Virus record (IMG/VR): IMGVR_UViG_3300034374_008949
Span: 1 to 34,144 of that record
Strand: one strand, 5' to 3'
From: a virus
Length of the DNA stretch: 34,144 nucleotides
Shown here: piece after piece, positions 4,716 to 19,272 of the stretch
Numbering within the stretch: position 1 is the stretch's first letter
Layout of the letters: each line of letters begins with the position of its first letter
Made by a program: the position numbers and the translations under genes
Notes under the pieces: model-generated
Told to the model about the DNA's origin: nothing
The model's database searches: none
What the model saw: the letters and a program-made list of their open reading frames with translations, nothing else

Positions 4716-5431
4716 GGACGTGTCGTCAAAGGAACAAGGATTGCGGGGAAGGGATTATCGTCTTGATGTTCCCTTCTCCATGCCGTCTCCCATTCAGCCA
4801 GTGAATGTTCGTGGTCCTCAGCGCCGGTGTAACCAAGGGTCACATCAGCCAATACCGAGCTTTCTTCTGCGGTATCTTCAAAGAGTAAACGAGAAAAATC
4901 CTCAAGCAAGATAAATGGTGTGGGATCGGCAACTTCAACAACGATCCCAACGGCATAATCTAAACGCTCATTTCGGGTAGAAGAAATACAAATTAAGTAC
5001 TCCCCAACACCAAGGGGATAGTACATATCATCGCCTCTGTCCAGGCGGCGTGGGTCGTAATTGTTGTATAGGTCAGACCCAGCGGCCATCACATGACCGA
5101 CATAAGGATTAAATAGTGAACCGTCTTTTTCAATCGTGATGCTGTCAGCACCAAAGATCATCCGCCCCTGGATCGGATTCCTATTGATGTCGTATGCAGA
5201 AACCTGGATGTAATTAGGTTTAGGACCACCTTTTGCAATGATGATCCAGGCAGGAACCCTTATTGCAATCTTGAACCAATGGTTATATGTACCGCCGCCA
5301 TAACCACCGGACACCACCTGGCTCAAGGGACCAAGGGTGCCGGTCAGATAACGAATAGAAGTCTGGTCAAACGTACCAATCAACAGCGGATCGTTAGCAG
5401 TACGCTGCCGCTGGCTTAATTGATTACGCAT
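4712..5431 (-). CDS. Conserved cyanophage protein, probable virion component
   Basis: 239 residues starting MRNQLSQRQRTANDPLL. The sequence is beta-rich with several Gly-rich turns (TGTLGPLSQVVSGGYGGG), the phrase LDRGDDMYYPLGVGEYLIC, and an acidic C-terminal region that ends in AEWETAWRREHQ. I recall similar proteins in marine cyanophages, without a known function; its beta-sandwich look and lack of catalytic motifs fit a structural or adsorption protein. First gene of an operon of five overlapping genes running to 3948. Confidence 0.65.
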   Translation of the reverse strand: MRNQLSQRQRTANDPLLIGTFDQTSIRYLTGTLGPLSQVVSGGYGGGTYNHWFKIAIRVPAWIIIAKGGPKPNYIQVSAYDINRNPIQGRMIFGADSITIEKDGSLFNPYVGHVMAAGSDLYNNYDPRRLDRGDDMYYPLGVGEYLICISSTRNERLDYAVGIVVEVADPTPFILLEDFSRLLFEDTAEESSVLADVTLGYTGAEDHEHSLAEWETAWRREHQDDNPFPAILVPLTTRP

Positions 5432-5451
5432 AATATTTTTACTTTTATTAT

Positions 5452-6123
5452 CTATCCTTCATCATAATAGGGAGCATCTTTAGCACATAACGGATGTAAA
5501 ATCGTCTGCTTATGTGATCGCTGTAATAGTTCATTTAACCTATTTGCCCGCTTTGCGGCGCTAACCAACATCAAGTCCTCCGCTTTGAACTCCAACTCCA
5601 TCGGTTGAACATGTTTTGGTGGCATACCAATGTTCCAGGTGGAAACCATGTGTAATGGGTTGCCACACCAGGGATTACCGCAGACCCGTGTTACGACCAT
5701 CGCCCCCACATCCCCCCACGCACACTGGTATATCACCTTATGGGGCGTGACGTTTTCTGATTTCCGATTGCTGTAGTACGCACGGTAAGACGGAAAACAA
5801 ATACGTCTTGGTGATGCTTTACCAGGGAGTTTTATCTTCCAGCACTCGTTTGAAGCGCCGACATCAATCGCTGCCCAGAGCCGGTGGTATTTGATTTTGT
5901 AGTCTACATTGAGAAAATTGAGATTAAATCCGCAGAGATTGGACTTGATCTTGATGACGCAGTGGTAGCACCAATGCATTTGCATGTCTCGGATGGTATG
6001 TCCATGCGGGCATTGGTATCCCTTGTAATACCCATGAGACTTAAGTTGAGACTCATCAAGGGAATCGATGTCTTGGACGTGCCGAAAGTCAGCCAGCTCC
6101 AAAGCCTGGGCCACATTTGCCAT
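5452..6123 (-). CDS. HNH-type endonuclease-like protein
   Basis: 223 residues. Residues about 37-60 carry a zinc-ribbon-like CPHGH..CYHC pair. The C-terminal half has PSYRAYYSN, then VTRVCGNPWCGNPLHMVS, which resembles the final part of the HNH nuclease fold where CxNPxHL binds the metal and DNA; the central His is probably in TPHKVIYQC. Phage proteins of this kind are usually homing endonucleases or DNA-binding relatives. The ATG overlaps the stop of the upstream HNH-like gene (TAATG). Whether it still cuts DNA cannot be seen. Confidence 0.62.
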   Translation of the reverse strand: MANVAQALELADFRHVQDIDSLDESQLKSHGYYKGYQCPHGHTIRDMQMHWCYHCVIKIKSNLCGFNLNFLNVDYKIKYHRLWAAIDVGASNECWKIKLPGKASPRRICFPSYRAYYSNRKSENVTPHKVIYQCAWGDVGAMVVTRVCGNPWCGNPLHMVSTWNIGMPPKHVQPMELEFKAEDLMLVSAAKRANRLNELLQRSHKQTILHPLCAKDAPYYDEG

Positions 6124-6452
6124 TAGTCCCAGCTCCAGGAGGGTTTCCGCTTGTACGGACGTGGTCGATAGGCCTGAACCAACTCTTCTCTGTTGTCTTT
6201 TTCTCGGTTTAGGGGGCCGTGCTTAACGCAGAAACCATCTGGGCATTGGCCTGTTCGCATGTAATAGACAATTCTGTGGGCCAAGAAGACCTCGTTGTCG
6301 ATTGAGATCTCGTAAAAACCGCTGACTTTGTTTCGTCGGGTGACAAATTTCCCAGTTTCGACCCTTTTTAGGGCGCTTGGGTGCTCATCCGTCAGTTCCA
6401 GGATTTCTTCCAGCCTCCAGAGCGGTGGCATCTCCAGGTAGTTGTGCGGCAC
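6123..6452 (-). CDS. Small HNH-like DNA-binding/nuclease protein
   Basis: 109 residues with the phrase FYEISIDNEVFLAHRIVYYM, then GFCVKHGPLNREKDNREELV, which matches the HNH_3 type homing endonuclease pattern (AHRxxxxxxxG ... V.H..G...DNR). The N-terminus is unusual and short. I kept the GTG at 6452, which lies only a few bases after a TATTCT hexamer, so the message might be leaderless; an ATG at 6431 is the alternative. It heads the two-gene HNH unit directly next to the concentric inverted repeat at 6454-6622. Confidence 0.6.
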   Translation of the reverse strand: MPHNYLEMPPLWRLEEILELTDEHPSALKRVETGKFVTRRNKVSGFYEISIDNEVFLAHRIVYYMRTGQCPDGFCVKHGPLNREKDNREELVQAYRPRPYKRKPSWSWD

Positions 6453-6453
6453 A

Positions 6454-6622
6454 ACACAGAATAGGAATGAATTTGCTTAGATCTTAGTCTAAGTTACGCC
6501 GTTCGGATAGTGTAAACGTCTATTCTGTGTTTCTAAGTCTCATGAGAAGCAGAACAAACACTTACACTATCGGAGCGGCGTAACCTGGCCCTTATCTAAG
6601 GAAAAATACGCCTATTCTGTGT
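6454..6622. repeat. Concentric imperfect palindrome, three nested pairs of arms
   Basis: Three pairs of inverted arms share one centre near 6538. Outer arms: 6454-6465 and 6611-6622, 12 perfect bases (CCTATTCTGTGT read inward). Middle arms: 6476-6482 and 6594-6600 (CTTAGAT/ATCTAAG). Inner arms: 6493-6515 and 6562-6584, 23 bases with two mismatches (GTTACGCCG...GATAGTGTAA). A third copy of the 12-mer (one change) lies in the loop at 6519-6530, and a TCTCATGAGA palindrome at 6538-6547. The whole 169 bases could fold as one long stem, as RNA or as a DNA cruciform. No gene of useful length lies here. Confidence 0.8.
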
Positions 6623-6675
6623 CGCTATCACGCCTCATCTTCCCACCTTGGTCTCAACATGAGACTAATAGGCCA

Positions 6676-6705
6676 TAAAAAACCCGCCTTGCGCTAGAGG
6701 CGGGT
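6676..6705 (-). terminator. Rho-independent terminator after the glycosyltransferase gene
   Basis: Arms ACCCGCCT (6682-6689) and AGGCGGGT (6698-6705) form a perfect 8-base stem with an 8-base loop. On the minus strand the stem is followed by a run of six T. It lies about 22 bases after the stop of the glycosyltransferase and ends the minus-strand transcript coming from 12.5 kb, so the HNH genes beyond must have their own promoter. Confidence 0.88.
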
Positions 6706-6727
6706 AGGTCTTCGTCGGTTCCCGGAG

Positions 6728-8002
6728 TCAGCTTACGCCAGCCAGCTCCTTTTTCTTGGACCGTTTTTGTTTCTTCTTACTTTTTGGAGCAGGAGTTTCC
6801 TCTTCCAACCCGTGATCCACTTCTTTCAGCACGTCTTCAAAGATTCCGCCAAACTGAGACGCAACCGTGTCCCATGAGAATTGTTCATCCGTGGCACGGA
6901 CGTAGCACAACTCAGCGACAGCATCCAGTTTTTCCCGATCTTCGTAGAGTTCGGTCATCAATTCCGCCAGGTGATCGGCAGAAGGACAGGGCATCTCCCG
7001 TGCGTAGTTAGTGTCCACATCAACGTGGTCACAACGGATCAATTTGCCGTAGCCCTCAAAGATTTCTTTGCAGGAGGTGTGATCCGGCACGATTTGGGCG
7101 ACACGACAGGCGGCGTGCTCGAAGTTGACGAGACCCCAGCCCTCACCCTTGCAGGTATTAACGCCAATATCGACGGCGTTATAGATCAGGTTGAGTGCGT
7201 CCACCTGGACATTGGGCGGATGTGCATCATTACTACTGAGGATGATGCGGTTGTTGGGATCGAGGCCAACCTTGTTCATCTCCCGTGCGAAGACCGCCAT
7301 GATGTCCCAACCCTGGTCCTTTTGCCCCATGTGTAGGTAGAGCTGGGCATCGGGTTTGTCGACAGCAAACTTGGCGAAGGCTTCGATCGTAATGTCGATG
7401 CGCTTACGGAATTGGTTGCGGTTGCCGTTGAAAACAATGAAGGCATCCAGGGGCAAACCAAGACGCTTCCGTGCTTCTTGCTTATCGACGGGGAAGAATT
7501 GACCGTGGGTAACGCCGTGGGGGATGACAGCGATGGGCTTATTGATGCCACCTTTCACGAATTCGTACGCACCAAATTCGGTGTAGGAGATGATCCCATC
7601 CCATTCGTTGGCGGTATCGGACAGGCAACCAAGCCAGTTGTACGAATCCATGGGTGCATAACCCACGAATTTAAACTTGCCAGCCTTGTGCAAGTCTTGG
7701 ATCTGCTGGTACTGAGCGTTGATGATCCACATGTCGTTGATGGTGAACACCACGTCAGGTTGTTCTTTCTCAACGATCTCCCGAATCCGTTGCTCACCAA
7801 AGGGTGCGGTTTGATAACGGTTGGACGAGGGGTACATCCGATATTTCTCTTGCAGCGGATGTGGGTCACCCCACCAGTTATTGCCGAGCACAATGATTTC
7901 GAAGCCGTCAACCAGCCTTTCGAGCACATTCTCAGTGACACGTGCGAAGCCAGTCATGGCGACGATGTCACCAACCCATAAAAGCTTTGGTTTTTTACTC
8001 AT
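6728..8002 (-). CDS. Family GT4 (group 1) glycosyltransferase
   Basis: 424 residues with a GT-B fold layout. The N-terminal half begins KPKLLWVGDIVAMTGFARVTENVL (a typical donor-independent Rossmann start). The C-terminal nucleotide-sugar half has FIVFNGNRNQFRKRID, VDIGVNTCKGEGWGLVNFEHAAC with the E-x7-E motif that contacts the donor sugar, then QIVPDHTSCKEIF. The last 25 residues are a Lys-rich tail (PKSKKKQKRSKKKEL). It transfers a sugar from a nucleotide donor to an unknown acceptor. Last gene of the minus-strand unit, followed by a terminator. The sugar-nucleotide genes at 14.6-18.1 kb could supply its donor; this is inference. Confidence 0.88.
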   Translation of the reverse strand: MSKKPKLLWVGDIVAMTGFARVTENVLERLVDGFEIIVLGNNWWGDPHPLQEKYRMYPSSNRYQTAPFGEQRIREIVEKEQPDVVFTINDMWIINAQYQQIQDLHKAGKFKFVGYAPMDSYNWLGCLSDTANEWDGIISYTEFGAYEFVKGGINKPIAVIPHGVTHGQFFPVDKQEARKRLGLPLDAFIVFNGNRNQFRKRIDITIEAFAKFAVDKPDAQLYLHMGQKDQGWDIMAVFAREMNKVGLDPNNRIILSSNDAHPPNVQVDALNLIYNAVDIGVNTCKGEGWGLVNFEHAACRVAQIVPDHTSCKEIFEGYGKLIRCDHVDVDTNYAREMPCPSADHLAELMTELYEDREKLDAVAELCYVRATDEQFSWDTVASQFGGIFEDVLKEVDHGLEEETPAPKSKKKQKRSKKKELAGVS

Positions 8003-8025: not shown

Positions 8026-8385
8026 CTATACCGAAACAGCAGGAGTTGTGGACCGTACAAGTTCTTTTTCTTCCGTATGTTTAGCGCCTAACTTCTCTTT
8101 TAAGAATTCAGCAGCTTTGTGGGTTTCCGTTGTGTCACCACAGGTGTAGAGGTCAACAGCTGCGTAACCGATCTCAGGCCAGGTGTGGATGGAAGCATGA
8201 GATTCCGACAGAAGCGCGAGGAGCGTAACGCCTTGCGGCTTGAACTTCTCACCGATGATACGGATGATGTTGGCCCCAGCCATGTTGAGTGCAACCTCAA
8301 GGGACAGCTGGAGCTTGGTGTAGTTATTCAGTATTTCTGCGTCGCAGTCATACAGGTCGAGGATCAAGTGACGACCATTACTCAT
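8026..8385 (-). CDS. speD: S-adenosylmethionine decarboxylase proenzyme
   Basis: 119 residues from the ATG at 8385, which has GAGG nine bases upstream; an ATG at 8400 would add five residues without a good ribosome site. The proenzyme cuts itself in LSESHASIHTWPE between Glu61 and Ser62; Ser62 becomes the pyruvoyl cofactor. His67 and Cys82 (LYTCGD) are the other catalytic residues, and the numbering is one less than in the Thermotoga enzyme, which supports the chosen start. The enzyme makes decarboxylated SAM, the aminopropyl donor for spermidine. speD is a known auxiliary metabolic gene of cyanophages. The start overlaps the end of the primase-helicase by eight bases. Confidence 0.95.
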   Translation of the reverse strand: MSNGRHLILDLYDCDAEILNNYTKLQLSLEVALNMAGANIIRIIGEKFKPQGVTLLALLSESHASIHTWPEIGYAAVDLYTCGDTTETHKAAEFLKEKLGAKHTEEKELVRSTTPAVSV

Positions 8386-11020
8386 TTTCGTGTGCCTCAT
8401 CGATATCTATCTTCTCACCAGACTTTTTATCCAGCACATCACCGTAGTGAATACGCCACTCTTCTTTGTTGAGACCAACCTCCACGATGGAGGGGAACTT
8501 GGCGTATTTCTGGTCAGAAGCACGGCAGGCAACATTAACGACCCGCATGCCACGACGATCTTTAAATTTGTAGACATTTAGCCCAAGCTGGTGGACACAC
8601 ACGTCCATAAGCAGGGTTTCAAAACGGCTACGGCCAAGGATATTGCTGTTGGAACCACGGGAGAACTCACAGTAACTGGCGTATAACCAGGTGTCCCATG
8701 AGACGTAGACGTTGGAGGAACCAGCGGCTGAGTGTTTGGCTAGACCGATCGGCGCAGAAATTCCTGGATCAAATACCAGACAATGTTCCATCCAATCCAT
8801 GATTTGGTTGGATTTGAGGATTTGTTCACGGTGGTGCTTCGCGAAGAAGTTGACCTTCTTGGTGGTTTCCATGAGGTATTCACGCATTTGCGCTTCGGTC
8901 ATGTCGAGCACCCAGTTCACCAATCCAGGAATGAGAGGAGCGAACTCACCGAAAGGACGACCCCTATCGTCCATGTCAATAAGGGTTCTTTGTTCAGCAG
9001 AACTGCCAGTAAAAGGCCGGTCAAAAGGAATGGTGAGGCGACGACGAGCCAAACCAGAAGTCGGGTCAGTAGTTTGGATGGGTTCATTGGCTGTAATCAT
9101 CACCAGGCCGTTGTATTTGAACGGCTTTTGTGATCCGCTTTGGAATTTGCGTTCGTTACGAATGAGGTCACGGCCAGTGATGGCCTTAAGAACGGAGACT
9201 GAACCGCCGTACCGCTCCACATCATTGAAGAGCAGGAGCTTTTTCTTGTAGAGGTTGGCGGTTTCAAACCGGTTTTTCTCCAGGTGCTCAAGGGAAGAGA
9301 TCATGGCGTTCTCATCCCCGACCAATGCGTGAGCAAGGTTGGAGTAGGTGGACTTACCGGACTTACCGGGGCCAACAATTTCAACGAACTTCTGGATTTC
9401 AGAGTGGCTGAGGAGGACTGCTCGCAGCCATGCCCTCAGAACCTGGACTCGTTCCCAGCTTCCGTCTTGTGCATTTTTGAGCCACTTGACGATAGGTTCG
9501 CAAGTTGCGTAAGGATCGTAGTCGTATGGCAGTTGTTGGGTGATGTACATTTCCCGATCGAAGGGAAGCAGTTCACGCGTTTCGAGTTCGAGGATTCCAT
9601 TGGTGAACAGGAGATAATCGTTGTCTTCGTACCACTCATCAAAGATGAGGGTGATGCGCAGCTGCTCGAGAATATCGTTGACCAGATTCATGCTGAAGCC
9701 TTTGGGCAACAGCTCTTCTTTGATCTGGGCCAACTGATCACGGATCTCGCCTTTGATTTCGAGATCAGTTAGTGCCGACCAGAGGCCTTTGCTCTTGTAT
9801 TCGTAAAGCAAGAAACAGCCTTGCACCTGGCTAAAACGCAGGTTACCTTTGTACTGCTGAATCAATACATTCGCAATTACATCAGATGAAGGATTTCTTG
9901 ATTGTTGCTTGTTGCCTGTGGCCAAGTCCGGTCGCTTCGTTTCCCACTGCATGGCACGGGGAGTTGAACGCGGCTCATTCTTACCAAGTTGGATGTCACC
10001 AATATGAATCATCGAATCATCTCCGTACTGTTCAAGAAGTTTTTCAGCCTGATCTAGTTGCTCATCATCGGGACTCATCGACTTATGGTCCTGAGACAGA
10101 ACAAAGCCATGCTCCTGAGCAACATGAATCAGGGAGCCAAGACCACGACCACCACCTTTAGAGAAGGAGAGCCAACGACGCTGGCACTCACCTTCCTGGT
10201 ATTTGTCGGATTGCTTAGACCAATCATCCCACTGTTCGAGCAGTGATTCATCCAAGGAATGAAGCGACTGACCGATTGTGATCCAGATGTCGTAGTCGTC
10301 TACGGCTTCCTGGGGCAGAGACCACATTGCTTCTGCGGCCAGTTTGATGTCACGTTCCAGGGGGACCTGGGCGTTTAGTGCAAAGCTGGGGCCAATAATG
10401 CGAGTGGTTTCTGTGGAGGGAATCCCCTGCTTGATGTTTTTACTGATGATGGCATTTAGCAGCCAGTCCGGAAACTCTGGCAGCTCATTAACCCACTCAA
10501 ACCCCTGGTCAGGAGCGGTGTAGTAACCATCAGTCTCAGGGTGTAGACCCATGAGAACACCCTGGTGCTTACGCCAGAGGATCTCAAGTTTTTCTTTGTT
10601 CCCCTCTGCGTGCCAGGTGTACTTATTACGAGCGAAATGCTTATGTTTTTCGCGATCCAGACGGTAGAGTTTACGTTCCCGACCCTCTTTGCCGCTGAGG
10701 ATGGTCAGGGTTTCTGGTAAGGCATCACTGAAAGTTGTACCGGCGAGCGTCTCGATAAGCGGGTAAACAGTCGGTCCATCAACATCGACCCAGACCAAGC
10801 CATAAGGATGGTTGTACACAGGGCCGCCCAGAAGACCGACGGCTTTGCATTGGCCAGATACAATTTCCTCTTCGATCTCGCGAACAGAATATGGTTTGTT
10901 CTGCCAGCCCGTAGTGTACGGGTCCTTTTTCGCGCCAAGTGGCGTGAGCGGCCAGTCGATCGGGATGTAGTCAAGACGTACCTCACCTGGACGAAGTGCT
11001 TGCTGGTTCTTACTCGTCAT
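8378..11020 (-). CDS. Primase-polymerase/SF3 helicase (P4/D5 type)
   Basis: 880 residues. Residues about 10-190 look like an archaeo-eukaryotic primase (bifunctional primase/polymerase) domain: LVWVDVDG around residue 77 is the metal-binding hhDhD motif. Residues about 220-310 resemble a primase C-terminal (PriCT) helix region (YDIWITIGQSLHSLDE). Residues about 440-500 fit the D5 N-terminal domain (LLFTNGILELETRELLPFD). The SF3 helicase follows: Walker A GPGKSGKST near 550, Walker B LLLFNDVE near 595, motif C VMITANEPI near 640, then an arginine region GLARRRLTIPF. One protein would prime and unwind phage DNA. This is unlike the separate gp41/gp61 of T4-like cyanophages. Confidence 0.9.
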   Translation of the reverse strand: MTSKNQQALRPGEVRLDYIPIDWPLTPLGAKKDPYTTGWQNKPYSVREIEEEIVSGQCKAVGLLGGPVYNHPYGLVWVDVDGPTVYPLIETLAGTTFSDALPETLTILSGKEGRERKLYRLDREKHKHFARNKYTWHAEGNKEKLEILWRKHQGVLMGLHPETDGYYTAPDQGFEWVNELPEFPDWLLNAIISKNIKQGIPSTETTRIIGPSFALNAQVPLERDIKLAAEAMWSLPQEAVDDYDIWITIGQSLHSLDESLLEQWDDWSKQSDKYQEGECQRRWLSFSKGGGRGLGSLIHVAQEHGFVLSQDHKSMSPDDEQLDQAEKLLEQYGDDSMIHIGDIQLGKNEPRSTPRAMQWETKRPDLATGNKQQSRNPSSDVIANVLIQQYKGNLRFSQVQGCFLLYEYKSKGLWSALTDLEIKGEIRDQLAQIKEELLPKGFSMNLVNDILEQLRITLIFDEWYEDNDYLLFTNGILELETRELLPFDREMYITQQLPYDYDPYATCEPIVKWLKNAQDGSWERVQVLRAWLRAVLLSHSEIQKFVEIVGPGKSGKSTYSNLAHALVGDENAMISSLEHLEKNRFETANLYKKKLLLFNDVERYGGSVSVLKAITGRDLIRNERKFQSGSQKPFKYNGLVMITANEPIQTTDPTSGLARRRLTIPFDRPFTGSSAEQRTLIDMDDRGRPFGEFAPLIPGLVNWVLDMTEAQMREYLMETTKKVNFFAKHHREQILKSNQIMDWMEHCLVFDPGISAPIGLAKHSAAGSSNVYVSWDTWLYASYCEFSRGSNSNILGRSRFETLLMDVCVHQLGLNVYKFKDRRGMRVVNVACRASDQKYAKFPSIVEVGLNKEEWRIHYGDVLDKKSGEKIDIDEAHENE

Positions 11021-12583: not shown

Positions 12584-12688
12584 ATGCGGGATTTTACGTA
12601 TGCGATAGCAGCAATATTGGGGGCTATGCTCTTGGTCATTGGCATTGATGCTTACATTTTCTTTTCAGAGGTAGCAGCACGTCAATGA
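12584..12688 (+). CDS. 34-residue single-span membrane peptide
   Basis: MRDFTYAIAAILGAMLLVIGIDAYIFFSEVAARQ written in two parts: MRDFTYAIAAILGAMLLV then IGIDAYIFFSEVAARQ. Residues 5-27 form one membrane helix. Its stop overlaps the hli start (ATGA), so the two are translated together. It resembles in size the small single-helix subunits of photosynthetic complexes, but it matches none that I can name. The gene starts in the 51-base divergent gap after 12532. Confidence 0.55.
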   Translation: MRDFTYAIAAILGAMLLVIGIDAYIFFSEVAARQ

Positions 12689-12924
12689 AAATTTTTATCG
12701 CAGCATTTCAAGCCGTGTGGATGATTGCCAGCTGGGCGATTGGCACATTGTGGCGTGAGTATATGGTCGATTTGCACATCGACAAGTGGCCCTGGCACCC
12801 CAACGACTACATCTGGTTTGCCGAACGGTGGAACGGCAGGCTTGCGATGTTTGGCGTTATTGCAATCCTGCAACTAGAGTTGATTTACAAGGAGAGTTTT
12901 TGGAAGCTGATCGGTGTCCTCTAA
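12685..12924 (+). CDS. hli: High-light-inducible protein (Hli/Scp)
   Basis: 79 residues. The chlorophyll-binding signature ExxNGRxAM is present as AERWNGRLAMFGVIAILQLEL in the C-terminal helix, with Glu, Asn and Arg as in the family. The N-terminal part (residues 1-25) is a second hydrophobic segment (FIAAFQAVWMIASWAIGTLW), which is longer than in ordinary one-helix Hlips. Hli proteins sit in the thylakoid membrane, bind chlorophyll and carotenoid and protect photosystem II assembly under stress; cyanophages carry them to keep photosynthesis running during infection. Translation is coupled to the 34-residue peptide before it. Confidence 0.9.
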   Translation: MKIFIAAFQAVWMIASWAIGTLWREYMVDLHIDKWPWHPNDYIWFAERWNGRLAMFGVIAILQLELIYKESFWKLIGVL

Positions 12925-13075: not shown

Positions 13076-13090
13076 TTCTTGGCGTTTGCC

Positions 13091-14602
13091 ATGAAGATTG
13101 ACCCGAAGGATATCAATTTATATGCCGTTGCCCATGGTGGCAAGCAGGTTACGTTCAAGAGCGTAGCGACGATCCACCGCTTTGATGCGGACAAGGACCA
13201 CAGGCCGGACATGAATCCGTACTGGTCTGAGCTGACCTGCATGGAATGGATGCAGCAGAACTGCAAGCAAGATTTTATTGGTGTTGCGAACTACCGGCGT
13301 TGTTTTACGGATGAAGCGTTGTCCAATTCTGAGGATGACGTGCTGTATGTGCCGGAGCGTTTTTACCTGCCGATGCCGATCAGTGAGCATTGGCATGGCT
13401 GTCATGCACCCACCTACCAGGTACCTGACCAGACCCTGGCACTAGCCAAGAAACATAAGCTGCCAATTCCAGCGGACATGCTGGAGGATTTCTGGAACGG
13501 CAAGAGGTTGCATCCCATCCTGATGCATTACGGCAACAGGGATTTGGTGAAGCGGTTCACTGGTCTGCTGTTTAGTTGCATGATGCCGATCTGGGAGGCA
13601 TACAAGGATGAGTATGAGCACCTTGAAGGCTACCCGCAGCGCTGGCTTGGCTACCTAACTGAACGTATTCAGAGCTGCCTGATCATTAACAAGGACTATT
13701 TCTTTGGTGACCTAAAGGTCAAAGAAGCACCCATGGTGATGGTTGAGCACGGCCAGGTACACACCTTTGCCGGTTTAGCGCCTGCCCATTGTTTAGTCAA
13801 AGACAAAAACGGTTACCATCATTTGGGACAGATCAACACAGAACCCGAACCCATGGAAGAAAGCAATACGCCAATCGAGTTGATTGCTACAGCTGTCGTC
13901 AATCGCGACCAGGATCTGTGGAAGCACTATGAATCGATCGACTATCCGGTCGAGCGTTATGTGGTGGTCGATAACTCCGAAGGCAAGTTTGATGACGTAA
14001 AGGATGTCCTCTTTGCTATTGAGGTCAATCCCAACAAGTTTGTCGAAGAAGTAGTCATCATCCGCCCCAACATCAACCTTGGGTACGGCGGTGCCATTAA
14101 CCAGATCGTCAAGCAGAACGTCGACTGCAACTACTGGTTCATTACCAATGACGATTGGCATGTTGAACCTGGTGAGCTGAAGCGTCTTGCTGCACGCCTC
14201 GAAGGTGATTTCACTGGCCTGCTTTGCGAAGGTGGTGAGATGAACGGATACTCAGCCTTCATCATGAGCGATGAAATGATCGAGAAGGTTGGGTTGATGG
14301 ACGAAAACTTCTACCCTGCCTACTGCGAAGACAACGATCATCGCTACCGAATGAAGCTTGCTGGCCTGACCTGGGACCGATTCCCCCTAAAGGCGAAGCA
14401 CGTTATCAGTAGCACCCTGCACAGTAACCCTCAGTTCGAGGAAAGGAACAAGGTTAGCTTTGCTTCCAACATCGAGTATTACATCGAGAAGTGGGGTGGT
14501 GATCGCGGAATGGAAGTTTATACGACACCGTTTAACTCCGGTGCTCCGATAGATTACTGGCCATATCGCCTCGATCGCATTTATAACCAGCAATGGCTGT
14601 GA
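13091..14602 (+). CDS. DUF4422-GT2 two-domain glycosyltransferase
   Basis: 503 residues from the ATG at 13091. Residues 1 to about 245 match the DUF4422 type of glycosyltransferase (PYWSELTCMEWMQQN, IGVANYRRCF, FLPMPISEHW-like region, QRWLGYLTERI). Residues about 260-490 are a second, GT-A/GT2 type domain: ELIATAVVNRDQDLWKH start, NINLGYGGAINQIVK, FITNDDWHVEPG with NDD in the DxD position, FYPAYCEDNDHRYRMKLAG. Both halves probably transfer sugars, so this enzyme may add two residues of one glycan. It opens the sugar-nucleotide operon and overlaps the next gene by ten bases. Confidence 0.82.
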   Translation: MKIDPKDINLYAVAHGGKQVTFKSVATIHRFDADKDHRPDMNPYWSELTCMEWMQQNCKQDFIGVANYRRCFTDEALSNSEDDVLYVPERFYLPMPISEHWHGCHAPTYQVPDQTLALAKKHKLPIPADMLEDFWNGKRLHPILMHYGNRDLVKRFTGLLFSCMMPIWEAYKDEYEHLEGYPQRWLGYLTERIQSCLIINKDYFFGDLKVKEAPMVMVEHGQVHTFAGLAPAHCLVKDKNGYHHLGQINTEPEPMEESNTPIELIATAVVNRDQDLWKHYESIDYPVERYVVVDNSEGKFDDVKDVLFAIEVNPNKFVEEVVIIRPNINLGYGGAINQIVKQNVDCNYWFITNDDWHVEPGELKRLAARLEGDFTGLLCEGGEMNGYSAFIMSDEMIEKVGLMDENFYPAYCEDNDHRYRMKLAGLTWDRFPLKAKHVISSTLHSNPQFEERNKVSFASNIEYYIEKWGGDRGMEVYTTPFNSGAPIDYWPYRLDRIYNQQWL

Positions 14603-15474
14603 AGAAAGATCCCATCAGTATTTACGGCGGCACTGGCATCCTTGGAAGCTATTACCGCCAGCTGTTTCCAACATTGCTTGTGCCACGGGAGCAGCTTGCG
14701 CCTTTCAGTAGTGAAGTCCTGTACCTAATCAGTACGACTGACAACTACACCTACAAGGAAGATCCCCTGGTTGATATTGAAACCAACCTTGTGGCGTTGA
14801 TGAAACGTCTGGATCTGTGCCGTGCGTACGGGATCAAGACATTTAATTTTGTGAGCAGCCACTTTGTCTACGATCCGTCTCATGTGAGACCCGATGAGAC
14901 AGCATCATGCGAGCCGAACGGGTTCTATTCCATCACGAAACGCACCGCTGAAAAGCTGGTGATGGAATACTGCAACACCTTTGGTATTGACTGGCGAATC
15001 TTGCGTGTTGGCAACGTGTACGGAGGACCAGACTCCGGGTCAACCAAACGAAATGCGTTGCATTTCTTGATTAACAAGGTGCGGAAGAATGAGCCGGTCC
15101 AGATCCACCGGCAAATTTCCCGTGACTTCATGCACATCTTTGATGTGTGTGGTGCCATCCATACGGTGTGTGAGCACGGGCACTGGAATGAGATCTACAA
15201 CATCGGCACGGGCATCGAGACTCCACTGGCTGATTGCGTCCAGAAAGCTAAGGAGTACCTGGGATCTAAGTCCAGTATTCACTTAGTTGATGCGCCAGTT
15301 GATTATCCGCAAGCGCTGCGATTTAGCCTAGACTGCAGCAAGCTAAATTTCCTGGGGTTTACACCCAGCATTTCATTAGAGGAAGGACTTCAAGACCTAT
15401 GTTCAAGTCAAAGGTTATGTACTCCGGACCGTACTTTGACGGACAAGAAATTGAAGCAGCAGTTAAAGCACTGA
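14593..15474 (+). CDS. Extended SDR sugar-nucleotide reductase/epimerase
   Basis: 293 residues. The NAD(P) Rossmann motif is YGGTGILGSYY (Gly12-Gly18), and the catalytic pair is Tyr112/Lys116 in FYSITKRTAEK; the substrate-binding end has NVYGGPDSG, SRDFMHIFDV and a final LDCSKLNFLGFTPSISLEEGL. This is the dTDP-rhamnose reductase/CDP-abequose synthase type of enzyme, which reduces or epimerises a 4-keto sugar nucleotide. With a 3-dehydratase next to it, reduction of the C4 ketone of a dideoxy sugar is the best guess. The last 25 residues run 76 bases into the next gene and look less conserved. Confidence 0.85.
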   Translation: MAVKKDPISIYGGTGILGSYYRQLFPTLLVPREQLAPFSSEVLYLISTTDNYTYKEDPLVDIETNLVALMKRLDLCRAYGIKTFNFVSSHFVYDPSHVRPDETASCEPNGFYSITKRTAEKLVMEYCNTFGIDWRILRVGNVYGGPDSGSTKRNALHFLINKVRKNEPVQIHRQISRDFMHIFDVCGAIHTVCEHGHWNEIYNIGTGIETPLADCVQKAKEYLGSKSSIHLVDAPVDYPQALRFSLDCSKLNFLGFTPSISLEEGLQDLCSSQRLCTPDRTLTDKKLKQQLKH

Positions 15475-16616
15475 AGGAAGGGAGCTGGTACCCAGCTGGA
15501 GAAGAGGTTGACAAATTTGAGAAGCAGTTTTCGAAACGGTTTGGTTTCGATTCTTCGCTGATGGTGAACAGCGGCAGTTCCGCCAACTTGGTGATGATTG
15601 CTGCATTGAAAAAATATTTTGATTGGCAGGATGGATCCGAGATTATCGTTAGTGTTGTTGGGTTCCCGACTACGGTCAACCCCATTCTCCAGAACGGTTT
15701 AGTTCCCCGTTTTGTTGACATCACATGGGATGACCTGAACTGGAATCTGGATCAAATCAAGGAGTCAATCAATGAAAAGACAGTTGCCGTTTTTAGTAGT
15801 CCTGTATTGGGCAATAGTTATGACCTTGACCAGCTCCTTGATTTATGTGAACGGCACTCGCTGAAGTACATCGCAGACAACTGCGACTCCCTTGGTTCTA
15901 AGTGGAAGGGCGAGTATCTGACGGAGCATGCCGTTGCGGGATCCTCTTCTTTTTATCCGGCACACCACATCACCACGCTGGAAGGTGGGATGGTGTCCTC
16001 CAAGAACGCAGAGATCGTGCGTCTTGCTCGGCAGTTTGCCTGGTGGGGACGTGACTGTTATTGCGTGGGTAGCTGCAACCAGCTGATCAACGGCAGTTGC
16101 GGCAAGCGGTTTGATGCTTGGCTGCCTGGTTATGACGGGATTGTTGATCACAAATATGTGTTCAGCCAGATTGGTTACAACTTGAAACCGATTGATTTGC
16201 AGGGTGCAATCGGCCAGGTGCAGCTGACCAAGATTGACGAGATCCACCAAAAACGACGCGAAAACTATTCACGAACCAAAGAAATTCTTAAGAAATTAGG
16301 AAGCGAGTTGCGTGTTGTTGACGAGAAACCAGAGGCTGAAACCTCTTGGTTCGGTGTGCCGATCATCTGTGAACACAAAGAGTACAAGCGTGAACTCCAG
16401 TTGTACCTAGAAGCAAACGGTATCCAGACCCGCAATTACTTTGCAGGCAACCTGTTGCTCCATCCTGCGTACCGAGACCTTGGTAATGCAAAGGATTACC
16501 CGAACGCCTATGACGTTCTTAGCAAAGTGTTCTTTATGAGTACTGCACCCATACTTACGGAAGAAAATTTTGCGTATATTGACGAGATCGTATCAAACTT
16601 CACCGGAGCGTACTGA
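15399..16616 (+). CDS. rfbH: RfbH-type NDP-4-keto-6-deoxyhexose 3-dehydratase (PMP and iron-sulphur)
   Basis: 405 residues of the DegT/DnrJ/EryC1/StrS fold. Instead of the PLP-binding lysine it has His189-His190 in FYPAHHITTLEGG, the hallmark of RfbH/DdhC/E1 dehydratases that use pyridoxamine phosphate for C3 deoxygenation. Iron-sulphur cysteines are present: Cys162 in DNCDS and Cys220, Cys222, Cys226 and Cys234 in RDCYCVGSC and SCGKRF. In the known pathway it removes the C3 hydroxyl of NDP-4-keto-6-deoxyglucose with electrons from a flavin/iron-sulphur reductase, giving a 3,6-dideoxy sugar. No such reductase is in the window, so the host would have to supply it. AGGAAGGA precedes the ATG; the next gene starts within its stop (TGATG). 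Confidence 0.9.
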   Translation: MFKSKVMYSGPYFDGQEIEAAVKALKEGSWYPAGEEVDKFEKQFSKRFGFDSSLMVNSGSSANLVMIAALKKYFDWQDGSEIIVSVVGFPTTVNPILQNGLVPRFVDITWDDLNWNLDQIKESINEKTVAVFSSPVLGNSYDLDQLLDLCERHSLKYIADNCDSLGSKWKGEYLTEHAVAGSSSFYPAHHITTLEGGMVSSKNAEIVRLARQFAWWGRDCYCVGSCNQLINGSCGKRFDAWLPGYDGIVDHKYVFSQIGYNLKPIDLQGAIGQVQLTKIDEIHQKRRENYSRTKEILKKLGSELRVVDEKPEAETSWFGVPIICEHKEYKRELQLYLEANGIQTRNYFAGNLLLHPAYRDLGNAKDYPNAYDVLSKVFFMSTAPILTEENFAYIDEIVSNFTGAY

Positions 16617-17161
16617 TGAAAGTTACCCCGCTTGCGCTACCAGAAGTCAAGCTAATTGACCTGGATGTATTCGAGGATGACCGTGGTGCTTTCACAGTTC
16701 ATTGGCATGAGGAGAAGTTGTCGGATGCGGTTGATGGCCATCACTTCCGGCAAGACAGCTATGTGTTGTCCAAGAAACATGTCGTGCGTGGCATGCATTA
16801 TCAGTTGCCGCCCTACGAGCAAGGCAAGTTGGTGCGTTGCATGAGCGGCGTCATCCAAGATGTGGTGGTTGACATCCGTAAGTCTTCCCCGCGTTTTGGT
16901 CAGTGGGTTGATGTGTTGCTGTATTCGCAGGACCATCAAGCATTGTGGGTACCGCCTGGCTTTGCCCACGGGTATGCAACCTTGGAACCCAATACGGCAG
17001 TCTTCTATAAGTGCACGGATTTACATGCGCCATCTGCTGAGCGCAGCATCTTATGGAACGATAAAGATTTAGATATTGACTGGGAAGTAACAAAGAAAGC
17101 TATAGTTTCAGCTAAAGATTCAAAGGGAATTCCTTTCAAGGAAGCAGAGGTATTTGAGTAA
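16616..17161 (+). CDS. rmlC: dTDP-4-dehydrorhamnose 3,5-epimerase-like (RmlC cupin)
   Basis: 181 residues, full family length. The double-stranded beta-helix motifs are all there: DDRGAFTVHWHEEKL, VVRGMHYQLPP with His61 and Lys71 (GKLVR), VVDIRKSSPRFGQW, PPGFAHGYATLE with the second His, VFYKCTDLHAP with the Tyr region and ILWNDKDLDIDW with the Asp that pairs with the catalytic His. It epimerises C3 and/or C5 of a 4-keto-6-deoxy sugar nucleotide. In a dideoxyhexose pathway the same fold does the C5 epimerisation of ascarylose synthesis, so the true substrate could be CDP- or dTDP-linked. Start and stop are coupled to both neighbours (TGATG and TAATG). Confidence 0.92.
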   Translation: MKVTPLALPEVKLIDLDVFEDDRGAFTVHWHEEKLSDAVDGHHFRQDSYVLSKKHVVRGMHYQLPPYEQGKLVRCMSGVIQDVVVDIRKSSPRFGQWVDVLLYSQDHQALWVPPGFAHGYATLEPNTAVFYKCTDLHAPSAERSILWNDKDLDIDWEVTKKAIVSAKDSKGIPFKEAEVFE

Positions 17162-18135
17162 TGGAAAACTATTTGGTTACGGGTGGCGCTGGGTTTATTG
17201 GTCGTCATCTCATCAAGCACCTGCTGGAGACCACGGACGCCAAGATTTATACGCTTGACAAGCTTGGTTACGCCAGTAATTCTGATGCGTTACATGAATT
17301 GCCTGGTGCACGGGAACGTCACCGGCTGTTCTGTTGTGACCTGACGGATGAAGGATATGTACAAGATGTTGTACATACTTTGCAACCGACCCGGATTTAT
17401 CACCTGGCTGCCGAAAGCCATGTCGATAACTCGATCCAGTCACCGCGTGAGTTTATCCAGAGCAACATTGTCGGCACCTACACCCTGCTGGAAGCATGCC
17501 GCCAGATGCTCCTGGAACCATTTCGGTTCTTGCACGTTAGTACTGATGAGGTTTTTGGGAGTTTGCATCCGGATACCAAGGATGAATTCTTTGTTGAGTC
17601 CACGCCTTACAACCCAAGCTCCCCATATTCAGCTAGTAAGGCAGCCAGTGATCACCTGGTGATGGCATGGCATAACACCTACGGATTCCCTGCTGTCATT
17701 ACAAATTGCAGCAATAACTATGGCCCTGGTCAACATCCCGAGAAGTTGATTCCCATGACCATTACCAATGCCCTGGGCAATCGTCCGATCACTGTACACG
17801 GCAAGGGATTAAACATTCGTGACTGGTTGCATGTAGAAGATCATGTCAAGGCACTTGCTTTAGTGATGGACGAGGGAGTCTTGGGTCAGCAGTATTGCAT
17901 CGGTGGCTTTGGCGAACGTACCAATATGGAAGTAGTGGAGACTATTTGTTATGTACTGGATGAATTGCTGCCACGTCCTACGCCATACTCCGACTTGATT
18001 ACGCACGTCTTGGATCGTCCGGGCAATGATCTGCGGTATGCGATTGATCCAACAAAGATTCAAGAACTGGGCTGGCGCCCAGACTATGACTTTGAAAGTG
18101 GCATCCGAGAAACCATCAAGGAATACGTTAAGTAA
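17161..18135 (+). CDS. rmlB: NDP-glucose 4,6-dehydratase (RmlB/RfbB family)
   Basis: 324 residues. Motifs in order: VTGGAGFIGRHL (NAD site, residues 6-17), YHLAAESHVDNSI, STDEVFGSL with the Thr/Asp/Glu of the active site, Tyr156/Lys160 in PYSASKAASDH, NCSNNYGPGQHPEKLIP, and RDWLHVEDHVKA near the end. HVDNSI and the NCSNNYGP..PEKLIP string are typical of dTDP-glucose dehydratases rather than CDP-glucose ones. It makes NDP-4-keto-6-deoxyglucose, the entry point for the 3,5-epimerase and the RfbH-type enzyme just upstream. Last gene of the sugar operon; no thymidylyltransferase (RmlA) is present. Confidence 0.94.
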   Translation: MENYLVTGGAGFIGRHLIKHLLETTDAKIYTLDKLGYASNSDALHELPGARERHRLFCCDLTDEGYVQDVVHTLQPTRIYHLAAESHVDNSIQSPREFIQSNIVGTYTLLEACRQMLLEPFRFLHVSTDEVFGSLHPDTKDEFFVESTPYNPSSPYSASKAASDHLVMAWHNTYGFPAVITNCSNNYGPGQHPEKLIPMTITNALGNRPITVHGKGLNIRDWLHVEDHVKALALVMDEGVLGQQYCIGGFGERTNMEVVETICYVLDELLPRPTPYSDLITHVLDRPGNDLRYAIDPTKIQELGWRPDYDFESGIRETIKEYVK

Positions 18136-18182
18136 TTCGGTTACCACAACTGTTAGTATTGGGTATACCACATTTGCAAACA

Positions 18183-18386
18183 ATGAATAAGCTGCAAGAG
18201 TATTATGATGTTGTGACGGAAGGGAATGAGTTCCTGGATAATCACAACCAGCTTTTACAAAGTTTGATGCTATCGAGGCAAAATGCTGGTAACCAATCTT
18301 CTAATCAGGAACCCCAAGGAATCGGAAATGAGTCTGTCGAACCAAGTCAAGGAGTCGGTCAACCAGGCGGCGGGGACTTTGCGTGA
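18183..18386 (+). CDS. Small hypothetical protein, 67 residues
   Basis: MNKLQEYYDVVTEGNEFLDN starts a helical N-terminal half (LQSLMLSRQNAGNQ), followed by a Gln/Gly/Pro-rich low-complexity tail (GVGQPGGGDFA). It starts 48 bases after rmlB and overlaps the next gene by 59 bases, in another frame. An upstream TTG would add eight residues. No family recognised. Confidence 0.55.
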   Translation: MNKLQEYYDVVTEGNEFLDNHNQLLQSLMLSRQNAGNQSSNQEPQGIGNESVEPSQGVGQPGGGDFA

Positions 18387-18534
18387 GGCACTAGCCTTTG
18401 CAGCACGCACCGAACATCCTGTTGTGATCAGCAGCCTGACCGATGTCTTGGTGAGGCTTGAGTCCCTGGAACACATGGACGAGATCATGGAGAAGTTCGG
18501 CAAGAGTAAAGACATCCCTACAAATTTTGGCTGA
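18328..18534 (+). CDS. Small helical protein, 68 residues
   Basis: MSLSNQVKESVNQAAGTLRE, then EALAFAARTEHPVVISSLTDVL and a helix ending EIMEKFGKSK. AAGGA sits six bases before the ATG at 18328, a good ribosome site, so this start was preferred to one 45 bases upstream. All-helical, no cysteines, no recognised family. It overlaps both neighbours. Confidence 0.62.
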   Translation: MSLSNQVKESVNQAAGTLREALAFAARTEHPVVISSLTDVLVRLESLEHMDEIMEKFGKSKDIPTNFG

Positions 18535-18694
18535 GCGTTACACGGATGAGCAACGACTCCAGGATTACTTCTGGAAGTTGGAGTCTTTGATTCCAAACCC
18601 AGGACCTAACTGGGCAAAATCTGCAAAGCCATGTAAGTGGAAAAAGATTCTGGATGAAAAGGCTAAGGGTTATACTGAAGATGCTCATATGTAA
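18527..18694 (+). CDS. Small hypothetical protein, about 55 residues
   Basis: The coding-like part begins after the stop of the previous gene (AERYTDEQRLQDYFWKLESL, then PGPNWAKSAKPCKWKKILDE). No ATG is available; a TTG at 18527 overlaps the previous stop by eight bases and is my choice. The frame is open further upstream but becomes Trp/Ser-rich there, like an antisense or shifted frame. Trp- and Lys-rich, unknown function. A terminator follows after about 40 bases. Confidence 0.5.
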   Translation: MAERYTDEQRLQDYFWKLESLIPNPGPNWAKSAKPCKWKKILDEKAKGYTEDAHM

Positions 18695-18732
18695 ACAGCT
18701 CAACGCGAGCGTTTAGCGGTAGTGAAGTTCTT

Positions 18733-18766
18733 AAAGATCTCGGCTTGAGCACCCGGGATCTTTTTT
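18733..18766 (+). terminator. Rho-independent terminator of the sugar/hli operon
   Basis: Arms AAAGATCTCGG (18733-18743) and CCGGGATCTTT (18753-18763) pair over 11 bases with one G-T pair and a 9-base loop, followed by TTTTTT. It closes the plus-strand unit that begins at 12584. Confidence 0.88.
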
Positions 18767-18801
18767 ATGTAGAGTGGATTATATACAGTTCAATTCAAAT
18801 C

Positions 18802-18984
18802 ATGGACGAACATACCCGCAAGAATTGGGAAACAGTCCGTAAAGCTTTGTTTGCAGCTGGCAAGACTGATTGCTTTATTTATCAGCAAGCAGTTTCCGTT
18901 ACGGATGGCCATGGCCTGATTGACAAGCATCCTGGGCTCGTAAATGCGGATGAGATTGCAAAACAACTTCTGGAAGAAAGTTGA
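18802..18984 (+). CDS. Small hypothetical protein, 60 residues
   Basis: MDEHTRKNWETVRKALFAAG and FIYQQAVSVTDGHGLIDKHP, ending EIAKQLLEES: a compact soluble helix-strand-helix pattern. An upstream in-frame start at 18745 would run through the terminator, so the ATG at 18802 is preferred. The gene is separated from the sugar operon by a terminator, so it has its own promoter somewhere in 18767-18801, where a TTATATA stretch occurs. No family recognised. Confidence 0.6.
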   Translation: MDEHTRKNWETVRKALFAAGKTDCFIYQQAVSVTDGHGLIDKHPGLVNADEIAKQLLEES

Positions 18985-18993
18985 TATAGTTTA

Positions 18994-19272
18994 TTGATAC
19001 GCAAAGTTGTAGTGAACCCTGGGCCAAAGAAGCGCCGGATTAACAGCAATCGCGAGAAGATGCGGACATATAAAAGGTCATCCAGTTGCCACTGTTGCGG
19101 CTTGGATGACCATCGGGTTCTTGAGTTTCACCACGTTGGACCAAAGAATTATTCGGTCGGCAACATGGTGAATAGCGGTTGTTCTTGGAAGACGATCTTA
19201 AAAGAAATCCAGAATTGTATTGTGGTGTGCTCCAACTGCCACCGTATTACCCATTACGAAGCGTTGCCTTGA
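18994..19272 (+). CDS. HNH endonuclease
   Basis: 92 residues. The zinc-ribbon and HNH motifs are clear: SCHCCGLDDHRVLEFHHVGP with the His-His catalytic start, Asn in KNYSVGNMV, and IVVCSNCHRITHY with the second CxxC and the metal-binding His. Such small phage HNH proteins act as homing or nicking nucleases, and some help terminase. The start is a TTG; a GTG six codons later is an alternative. It lies between small genes and its 3' end overlaps the convergent Dps-like gene by 26 bases. Confidence 0.85.
   Translation: MIRKVVVNPGPKKRRINSNREKMRTYKRSSSCHCCGLDDHRVLEFHHVGPKNYSVGNMVNSGCSWKTILKEIQNCIVVCSNCHRITHYEALP

Follow-up and report, generated by a model that had tools for sequence, protein, structure and literature searches.

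A predicted dTDP-linked 3,6-dideoxyhexose module in an S-EIV1-like cyanophage

Which sugar might a phage be making with four tightly packed nucleotide-sugar genes, and on which nucleotide would it be carried? The question is raised by the IMG/VR virus record IMGVR_UViG_3300034374_008949, a stretch of 34,144 bases (hereafter the window) which is probably a genome fragment, and in which genes for a short-chain dehydrogenase/reductase (SDR), an RfbH-type 3-dehydratase, an RmlC-type epimerase and an RmlB-type 4,6-dehydratase follow one another. A sequence-only reading had seen in them the core of 3,6-dideoxyhexose synthesis as known from ascarylose, and had left it undecided whether the sugar was linked to cytidine diphosphate (CDP) or to deoxythymidine diphosphate (dTDP). 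The analyses reported here make it likely that the genes are an auxiliary module with which an S-EIV1-like cyanophage produces a dTDP-linked 3,6-dideoxyhexose, the chemistry being predicted. This reading is carried by gene content, active-site residues, the conservation of a glycosyltransferase (GT)-SDR-RfbH unit, its association with RmlA and RmlB, and the absence of CDP-pathway genes.

Enzymes of the cassette

The four genes lie where the sequence-only reading had placed them, all on the + strand, overlapping or abutting and with intact frames: SDR (14593..15474), RfbH (15399..16616), RmlC (16616..17161) and RmlB (17161..18135). The first two overlap by 76 nt in the window, and SDR frames extending beyond the RfbH start were also seen in related contigs of the S-EIV1-like lineage. 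The gene order recurs in independent assemblies (L002-L004), and comparison of the window with L002 and L004 gave dN/dS values of 0.06-0.16 for the four genes, rough figures as dS is high, with no internal stops; all four are subject to purifying selection. A scan for promoters and terminators returned no more sites than were found in shuffled sequence.

The RfbH-like protein is predicted to be an E1/RfbH-type nucleotide-sugar 3-dehydratase dependent on pyridoxamine phosphate (PMP) and a [2Fe-2S] cluster. Its best NCBIfam model is RfbH (PRK15407, 362 bits; the next model scores 145), and the closest solved structures are those of Yersinia E1 (3bcx and 3bb8, 249 and 245 bits), followed by ColD (146) and aminotransferases (at most 116). 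Residues were mapped by alignment to Salmonella RfbH, the gene context of which is rfbI-rfbF-rfbG-rfbH-abequose synthase; His220, C193, C251, C253 and C261 of that enzyme correspond to H189, C162, C220, C222 and C234 of the window protein. The catalytic His189 (codon 15963..15965, + strand), equivalent to His220 of E1, occupies the position of the aminotransferase lysine, and the iron-sulphur ligands are Cys162 (codon 15882..15884, + strand; C193 in both Salmonella and Yersinia) and Cys220, Cys222 and Cys234 (16056..16100, + strand), the last three in a C-X-C-X11-C arrangement of which the final loop is four residues longer than in the C-X-C-X7-C of E1. In an alignment of 85 viral with 17 bacterial homologues, neither the histidine nor any of the four cysteines varies. 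Viral and close bacterial RfbH proteins form one clade (support 100) apart from the references taken from CDP operons and from Streptomyces dTDP operons, and the S-EIV1-like copies are themselves a single clade (support 97). Aminotransferases were compared outside this tree, through hidden Markov model (HMM) and sequence scores; an aminotransferase identity was rejected on His189, the cysteine ligands and the HMM ranking. The 3-dehydratase identity originally proposed is supported by the histidine in place of lysine, the four cysteines and the HMM and structure rankings. A related case was met in the ACG-2014f protein (L131:2890-4083), annotated as "aminotransferase" or "hypothetical" in dozens of genomes, which has histidine for the lysine that binds pyridoxal phosphate (PLP) and lacks three of the four iron-sulphur cysteines; from its residues it looks like a ColD-type 3-dehydratase, linked to guanosine diphosphate (GDP), rather than an aminotransferase.

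The other enzymes named by the sequence-only reading were likewise recovered by profile, motif and structure matches. The dTDP-4-dehydrorhamnose 3,5-epimerase RmlC scores 199 bits against TIGR01221, above the curated equivalog cut-off of 155.8, and 162 bits against RmlC in the PDB; its catalytic His, Lys, Tyr and Asp are present (H61 in RGMH, K71 in QGK, Y131 and D168), and it may act as a 3,5- or a 5-epimerase. The dTDP-glucose 4,6-dehydratase RmlB, with GGAGFIG, STDE at residues 127-130 and Y156/K160 of the YxxxK motif, scores 415 bits against TIGR01181 (curated equivalog cut-off 365) and 356 bits against the RmlB structure 1g1a, as opposed to 90 bits against the CDP-glucose 4,6-dehydratase model TIGR02622, for which the cut-off is 278.

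The SDR, of the extended type, is a probable NADPH-dependent 4-keto-sugar reductase carrying S88/Y112/K116. It matches only generic NAD-epimerase models in NCBIfam; identification as RmlD was rejected (TIGR01214, 24 bits against a cut-off of 224), as was a dehydratase, the STDE motif being absent. An AlphaFold2 (AF2) model with a predicted local distance difference test (pLDDT) of 88.7 is closest in fold to RMD, an NADPH enzyme (Z 29.8), tied with GalE-type 4-epimerases. The SDR stands beside RfbH in 81 of the 85 viral loci, and of the four exceptions all but one (L031, L035 and L037) are truncated by a contig edge. In L103, a Bacteroidia metagenome-assembled genome (MAG) without the SDR, RfbH is followed by a thiamine-diphosphate enzyme (5288-7021), which suggests a branched, yersiniose-like 3,6-dideoxy sugar; a YerE-like enzyme would use the 4-keto product instead of the SDR, which fits this arrangement.

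Upstream, as the sequence-only reading had noted, lies a two-domain GT (13079..14602, + strand), with an N-terminal DUF4422 half (45 bits) and a C-terminal GT half at about residues 257-507 (phrog_29879 galactosyl transferase, residues 272-486). In most relatives the gene directly upstream of SDR-RfbH encodes one GT only, a form of this second half.

The nucleotide carrier and the extent of the module

The question of CDP or dTDP can now be answered towards dTDP, to which the sugar is very probably linked, on the evidence of the RmlB and RmlC types, the trees and the gene contexts. Against dTDP-type references the window RmlB shows 42-44% identity, against CDP-glucose 4,6-dehydratases (RfbG) 21-25%, and the two types split in the RmlB tree at support 100. 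The window RmlC retains the RmlC motif QGKLVR, which reads HAKMVF in the epimerase of a Sphingomonas CDP operon. The match once drawn with the CDP-ascarylose set AscB/C/E/F therefore holds by role and not by homology, and membership of that set was rejected for the dehydratase and the epimerase on model scores, identities and the tree.

Neighbouring genes in other genomes point the same way. Neither RfbF nor RfbG was found in any of the 85 viral RfbH loci, and the 4,6-dehydratases found there by motif are RmlB-type in 23 of 23 cases. One IMG/VR contig (L071) carries overlapping RmlA-SDR-RfbH-RmlB, for which RmlA and RmlB are the best models at scores under the curated cut-offs; a PHROG scan of its ends gave DNA helicase and Nudix hydrolases only. 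RmlB-SDR-RfbH occurs in tandem without RmlC in L053, L055 and L084, RmlB-RmlC-SDR lies upstream of RfbH in cyanomyovirus islands, and in two Bacteriovoracales genomes (L100 and L111) RmlA and RmlB (over cut-off) are divergent from SDR-RfbH. RfbH is also present in the isolated phages S-B05 and S-B43, in S-B05 together with RmlB, RmlC and the SDR. The pairing of RmlB with SDR-RfbH recurs with differing RmlB clades in the tree. In a set of 15 bacterial genomes that encode a close RfbH, RmlB exceeds its cut-off in 12 and CDP-glucose 4,6-dehydratase in one. Two further features of the cyanomyovirus-like contigs were recorded. A TagD-like cytidylyltransferase opens some islands just ahead of RmlB (L083:1669-1995, L086:1501-1995); in these cyanomyoviruses it might point to a product linked to CDP. 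In many contigs (several of L045-L084) an SDR of about 350 residues (ALVLGAGGFIGSHMVKRL...) directly follows RfbH; it was rejected as an alternative dehydratase, the dehydratase motif being absent, and appears to be of the GDP-mannose 3,5-epimerase type.

The genes of the proposed four-gene unit are real, but they do not form a fixed core: the unit is a GT-SDR-RfbH core with an optional RmlC-RmlB add-on. The core is found in 25 of 25 related S-EIV1-like contigs, running from the exonuclease/hli side to a dps-like gene, or as far as a shorter record extends, while RmlC and RmlB occur together in eight of 26 records, the window and L002-L008 only. The remaining 18 contigs, among them some that at 79-85 kb approach S-EIVl in size, gave no PF00908 and no full PF16363 match. 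As the carriers of RmlC-RmlB form one clade in the RfbH tree (support 98), the pair was probably gained once in the lineage; RmlC is dispensable, since RfbH copies persist without it. The product may accordingly differ between relatives, an L-series sugar (ascarylose- or colitose-like) being expected with RmlC and a D-series sugar (paratose- or abequose-like) without it. The contig L093, which binning had placed in a Rhodothermales MAG, carries phage exonuclease-GT-SDR-RfbH with an RfbH 92% identical to that of the window, and is probably misbinned S-EIV1-like phage DNA.

Pathway, host and rival explanations

The pathway we propose is a prediction in its substrate and in the stereochemistry of its product, and so are the source of electrons, the acceptor and the biological effect. 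Starting from dTDP-glucose of the host, RmlB, as a phage copy here and a host copy in most relatives, would make dTDP-4-keto-6-deoxyglucose. The RfbH-type enzyme would form a PMP Schiff base and eliminate the 3-hydroxyl, host ferredoxin reducing the enzyme by way of its [2Fe-2S] cluster. Where present, RmlC would invert C5 to give the L-series; the SDR would reduce the 4-keto group with NADPH, and the adjacent GT would attach the product to an acceptor, for which host lipopolysaccharide (LPS) or O-antigen during infection is the likeliest candidate.

Two components were correctly reported missing by the sequence-only reading. No nucleotidyltransferase (PF00483) was found in the window, a probable fragment, or in 26 related records, and supply by the host is possible; nor was the ferredoxin-type Fer2 domain (PF00111) of an E3 reductase found in the window or the S-EIV1-like records searched. 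Ferredoxin and flavodoxin reductase pairs are present in cyanobacteria. It had been assumed that E3 must come from the host, but a dedicated E3 may be unnecessary: SpnQ, a homologue with an Fe-S cluster that belongs to the dTDP type, can draw its electrons from reductase pairs based on ferredoxin or flavodoxin (PMC8987622), which makes host ferredoxin a reasonable electron donor. A phrog_3704 "ferredoxin" beside the cassette in relatives (L002:11414-12085, E=5e-97) was rejected as donor, as no cysteine motif for an Fe-S cluster occurs in the sequences aligned; the PHROG label seems mistaken, and the S-EIVl homologue is annotated PurM. Genuine plant-type [2Fe-2S] ferredoxin open reading frames lie 1.2-1.5 kb downstream of RfbH in L044 (10402) and L067 (10653), and are possible electron donors for RfbH there.

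The window is assigned to an S-EIV1-like cyanophage on its primase (8378..11020, - strand), which is 63% identical to that of Synechococcus phage S-EIVl across 98% of its length, and on an agreeing set of genes: speD, a high-light-inducible (hli)-like gene beside the cassette that serves as a cyanophage marker (12685..12924, + strand; phrog_178, E=1e-4), family A DNA polymerase, single-stranded DNA-binding protein, exonuclease and tail fibres. S-EIVl was isolated from a high Arctic lake. Among 121 Prochlorococcus-family genomes, RfbH of this type is found in three, two of which entered the set because of their RfbH, and RmlB exceeds its cut-off in 83. From these counts the phage would usually add a sugar beyond the means of the host family, starting from an intermediate that is usually present. 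Cyanophage LPS genes have been proposed to modify the host surface (PMC2984593, PMC3037559, PMC7824862), against rival phages or grazers (PMC2984593, PMC7824862), and by analogy the role here is most likely a repainting of the surface glycan of the infected cell.

Several observations weigh against a dTDP-linked 3,6-dideoxyhexose. The RfbH-like protein falls below the PRK15407 equivalog cut-off of 423 bits, and would be a relative of that equivalog rather than a strict member; reductase and epimerase roles of the SDR are indistinguishable by fold in the model; and the structure model of the GT is of low confidence (pLDDT 53), its GT-A-like matches being a hint only. RmlB and RmlC are absent from all related contigs except L002-L008, and the contig of one Bacteriovoracales genome (G033, L100) bears both dTDP and CDP genes. 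Since CDP-glucose 4,6-dehydratase (RfbG) is present in 43 of the 121 host-family genomes, phages without their own RmlB could draw a CDP substrate from the host. On this alternative, RfbH and the SDR would act on host CDP-4-keto-6-deoxyglucose as in the ascarylose and abequose pathways, and E1 as nearest solved relative of the RfbH-like protein and the TagD-like gene of some cyanomyovirus islands would agree with it. We consider it improbable, however, given the lack of RfbF or RfbG beside any viral copy, the uniformly RmlB-type viral dehydratases, the separate RfbH clade and the dTDP type of the window RmlB and RmlC. Somewhat less improbable, and still unlikely, is that RmlC and RmlB supply dTDP-L-rhamnose together with host RmlA and RmlD, independently of a GT-SDR-RfbH unit working on its own host-made substrate. 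The true RmlC type of the window epimerase, the persistence of SDR-RfbH without RmlC and RmlB in 18 of 25 contigs and the frequency of RmlB in host-family genomes would all suit such an arrangement; set against it are the tandems of RmlB with SDR-RfbH that omit RmlC, joined by RmlA in L071, the repetition of this association with different RmlB clades, and the lack of an RmlD match in any viral locus, the query being a partial Salmonella RmlD.

It is highly improbable that the RfbH-like enzyme is a transaminase yielding a 4-amino-4,6-dideoxy sugar. It has the DegT/DnrJ/EryC1 fold, and SpnQ transaminates when given PLP and glutamate with the reductase absent (PMC8987622), but the histidine and four cysteines are invariant and RfbH scores well above PseC and WecE. 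The sugar might instead decorate the virion or the phage DNA, for which there are several GTs in the genome and a report that the RfbH-bearing phage S-B43 hypermodifies its DNA (PMC12783734). A search of the window that was not exhaustive turned up no gene for DNA modification, and the module also occurs in large LPS-type cyanomyovirus islands and bacterial glycan clusters; nothing specific speaks for virion or DNA decoration. We regard this destination as improbable too, and a change of the surface glycan would be the better reading.

Comparison with known systems

Auxiliary genes catalogued from marine viruses include some of the rfbH type, under CDP-pathway names (PMC10653327), the S-H68 record carries such an annotation, and LPS clusters of cyanomyoviruses are already known; cyanophage "LPS genes" have been described as being of unknown function, or perhaps stuffer DNA (PMC3037559). 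The 3-dehydratase substrates reviewed are CDP-, GDP- and dTDP-2,6-dideoxy-linked (PMC8987622), and no assignment of a dTDP-3,6-dideoxyhexose to any phage was found in open-access papers. Three points appear to be new: that the sugar is assigned to dTDP, that S-EIV1-like phages share a GT-SDR-RfbH core, and that these Fe-S 3-dehydratases form a clade of their own. The set would belong to a thymidine-linked branch of 3,6-dideoxy sugar chemistry that is present in many cyanophages and some bacteria and is not known to have been recognised as one. More tentatively, SDR-RfbH might represent a fourth substrate class among nucleotide-sugar 3-dehydratase systems, one that converts dTDP-4-keto-6-deoxyglucose directly into dTDP-3,6-dideoxyhexoses. 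It would be common to cyanophages, cyanobacteria, Bdellovibrionota and others, be driven by photosynthetic ferredoxin in oxygenic hosts, and allow the phage to impose on its host a surface sugar beyond the reach of most potential hosts. If the dTDP-linked reading is right, part of the cyanophage "LPS genes" would gain a concrete chemical identity and phages a testable route to altering the host surface against rivals or grazers, dTDP-4-keto-6-deoxyglucose would join the known substrates of Fe-S 3-dehydratases, and "aminotransferase" and "CDP-..." annotations in phage genomes would be corrected.

S-EIVl shares the neighbouring exonuclease, speD, GT4 and Dps-like genes with the window lineage; however, searches of it for the SDR, RmlC and RmlB gave no match, RfbH was likewise not seen among the hits, and ATP sulfurylase adjoins dps where relatives have the sugar module. 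The interval from the exonuclease to the dps-like gene is a variable cargo site (window 18135-19272; L085:5222-7242), edged by an HNH gene (window 18994-19272) or an endonuclease VII gene (L015).

With the E1/RfbH enzymes AscC and DdhC, which are CDP-4-keto-6-deoxyglucose 3-dehydratases, the window enzyme shares the PMP fold, the histidine for lysine and the four Fe-S cysteines, but it is about 36% identical, belongs to a separate clade, has the longer C3-C4 loop (X11 against X7) and is set among dTDP genes and not RfbF/RfbG/E3. The SpnQ-type RfbH of Streptomyces is similar in its dTDP context, where RmlB adjoins RfbH, and in its Fe-S cysteines; it too falls in a separate clade (36-37% identity to the window enzyme), and SpnQ acts after a 2,3-dehydratase, which was not identified in the window, on a 2,6-dideoxy sugar. 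ColD, the GDP-4-keto-6-deoxymannose 3-dehydratase, also carries out 3-deoxygenation with histidine in place of lysine, but does so without an Fe-S cluster (PMC8987622), all four ligands of which are present in the window enzyme. The LPS-type islands of cyanomyoviruses such as P-SSM2 and S-SSM7 resemble the cassette in being phage-borne nucleotide-sugar genes accompanied by GTs, whereas that of the window is a compact module, in an S-EIV1-like lineage, with a defined dideoxysugar logic.

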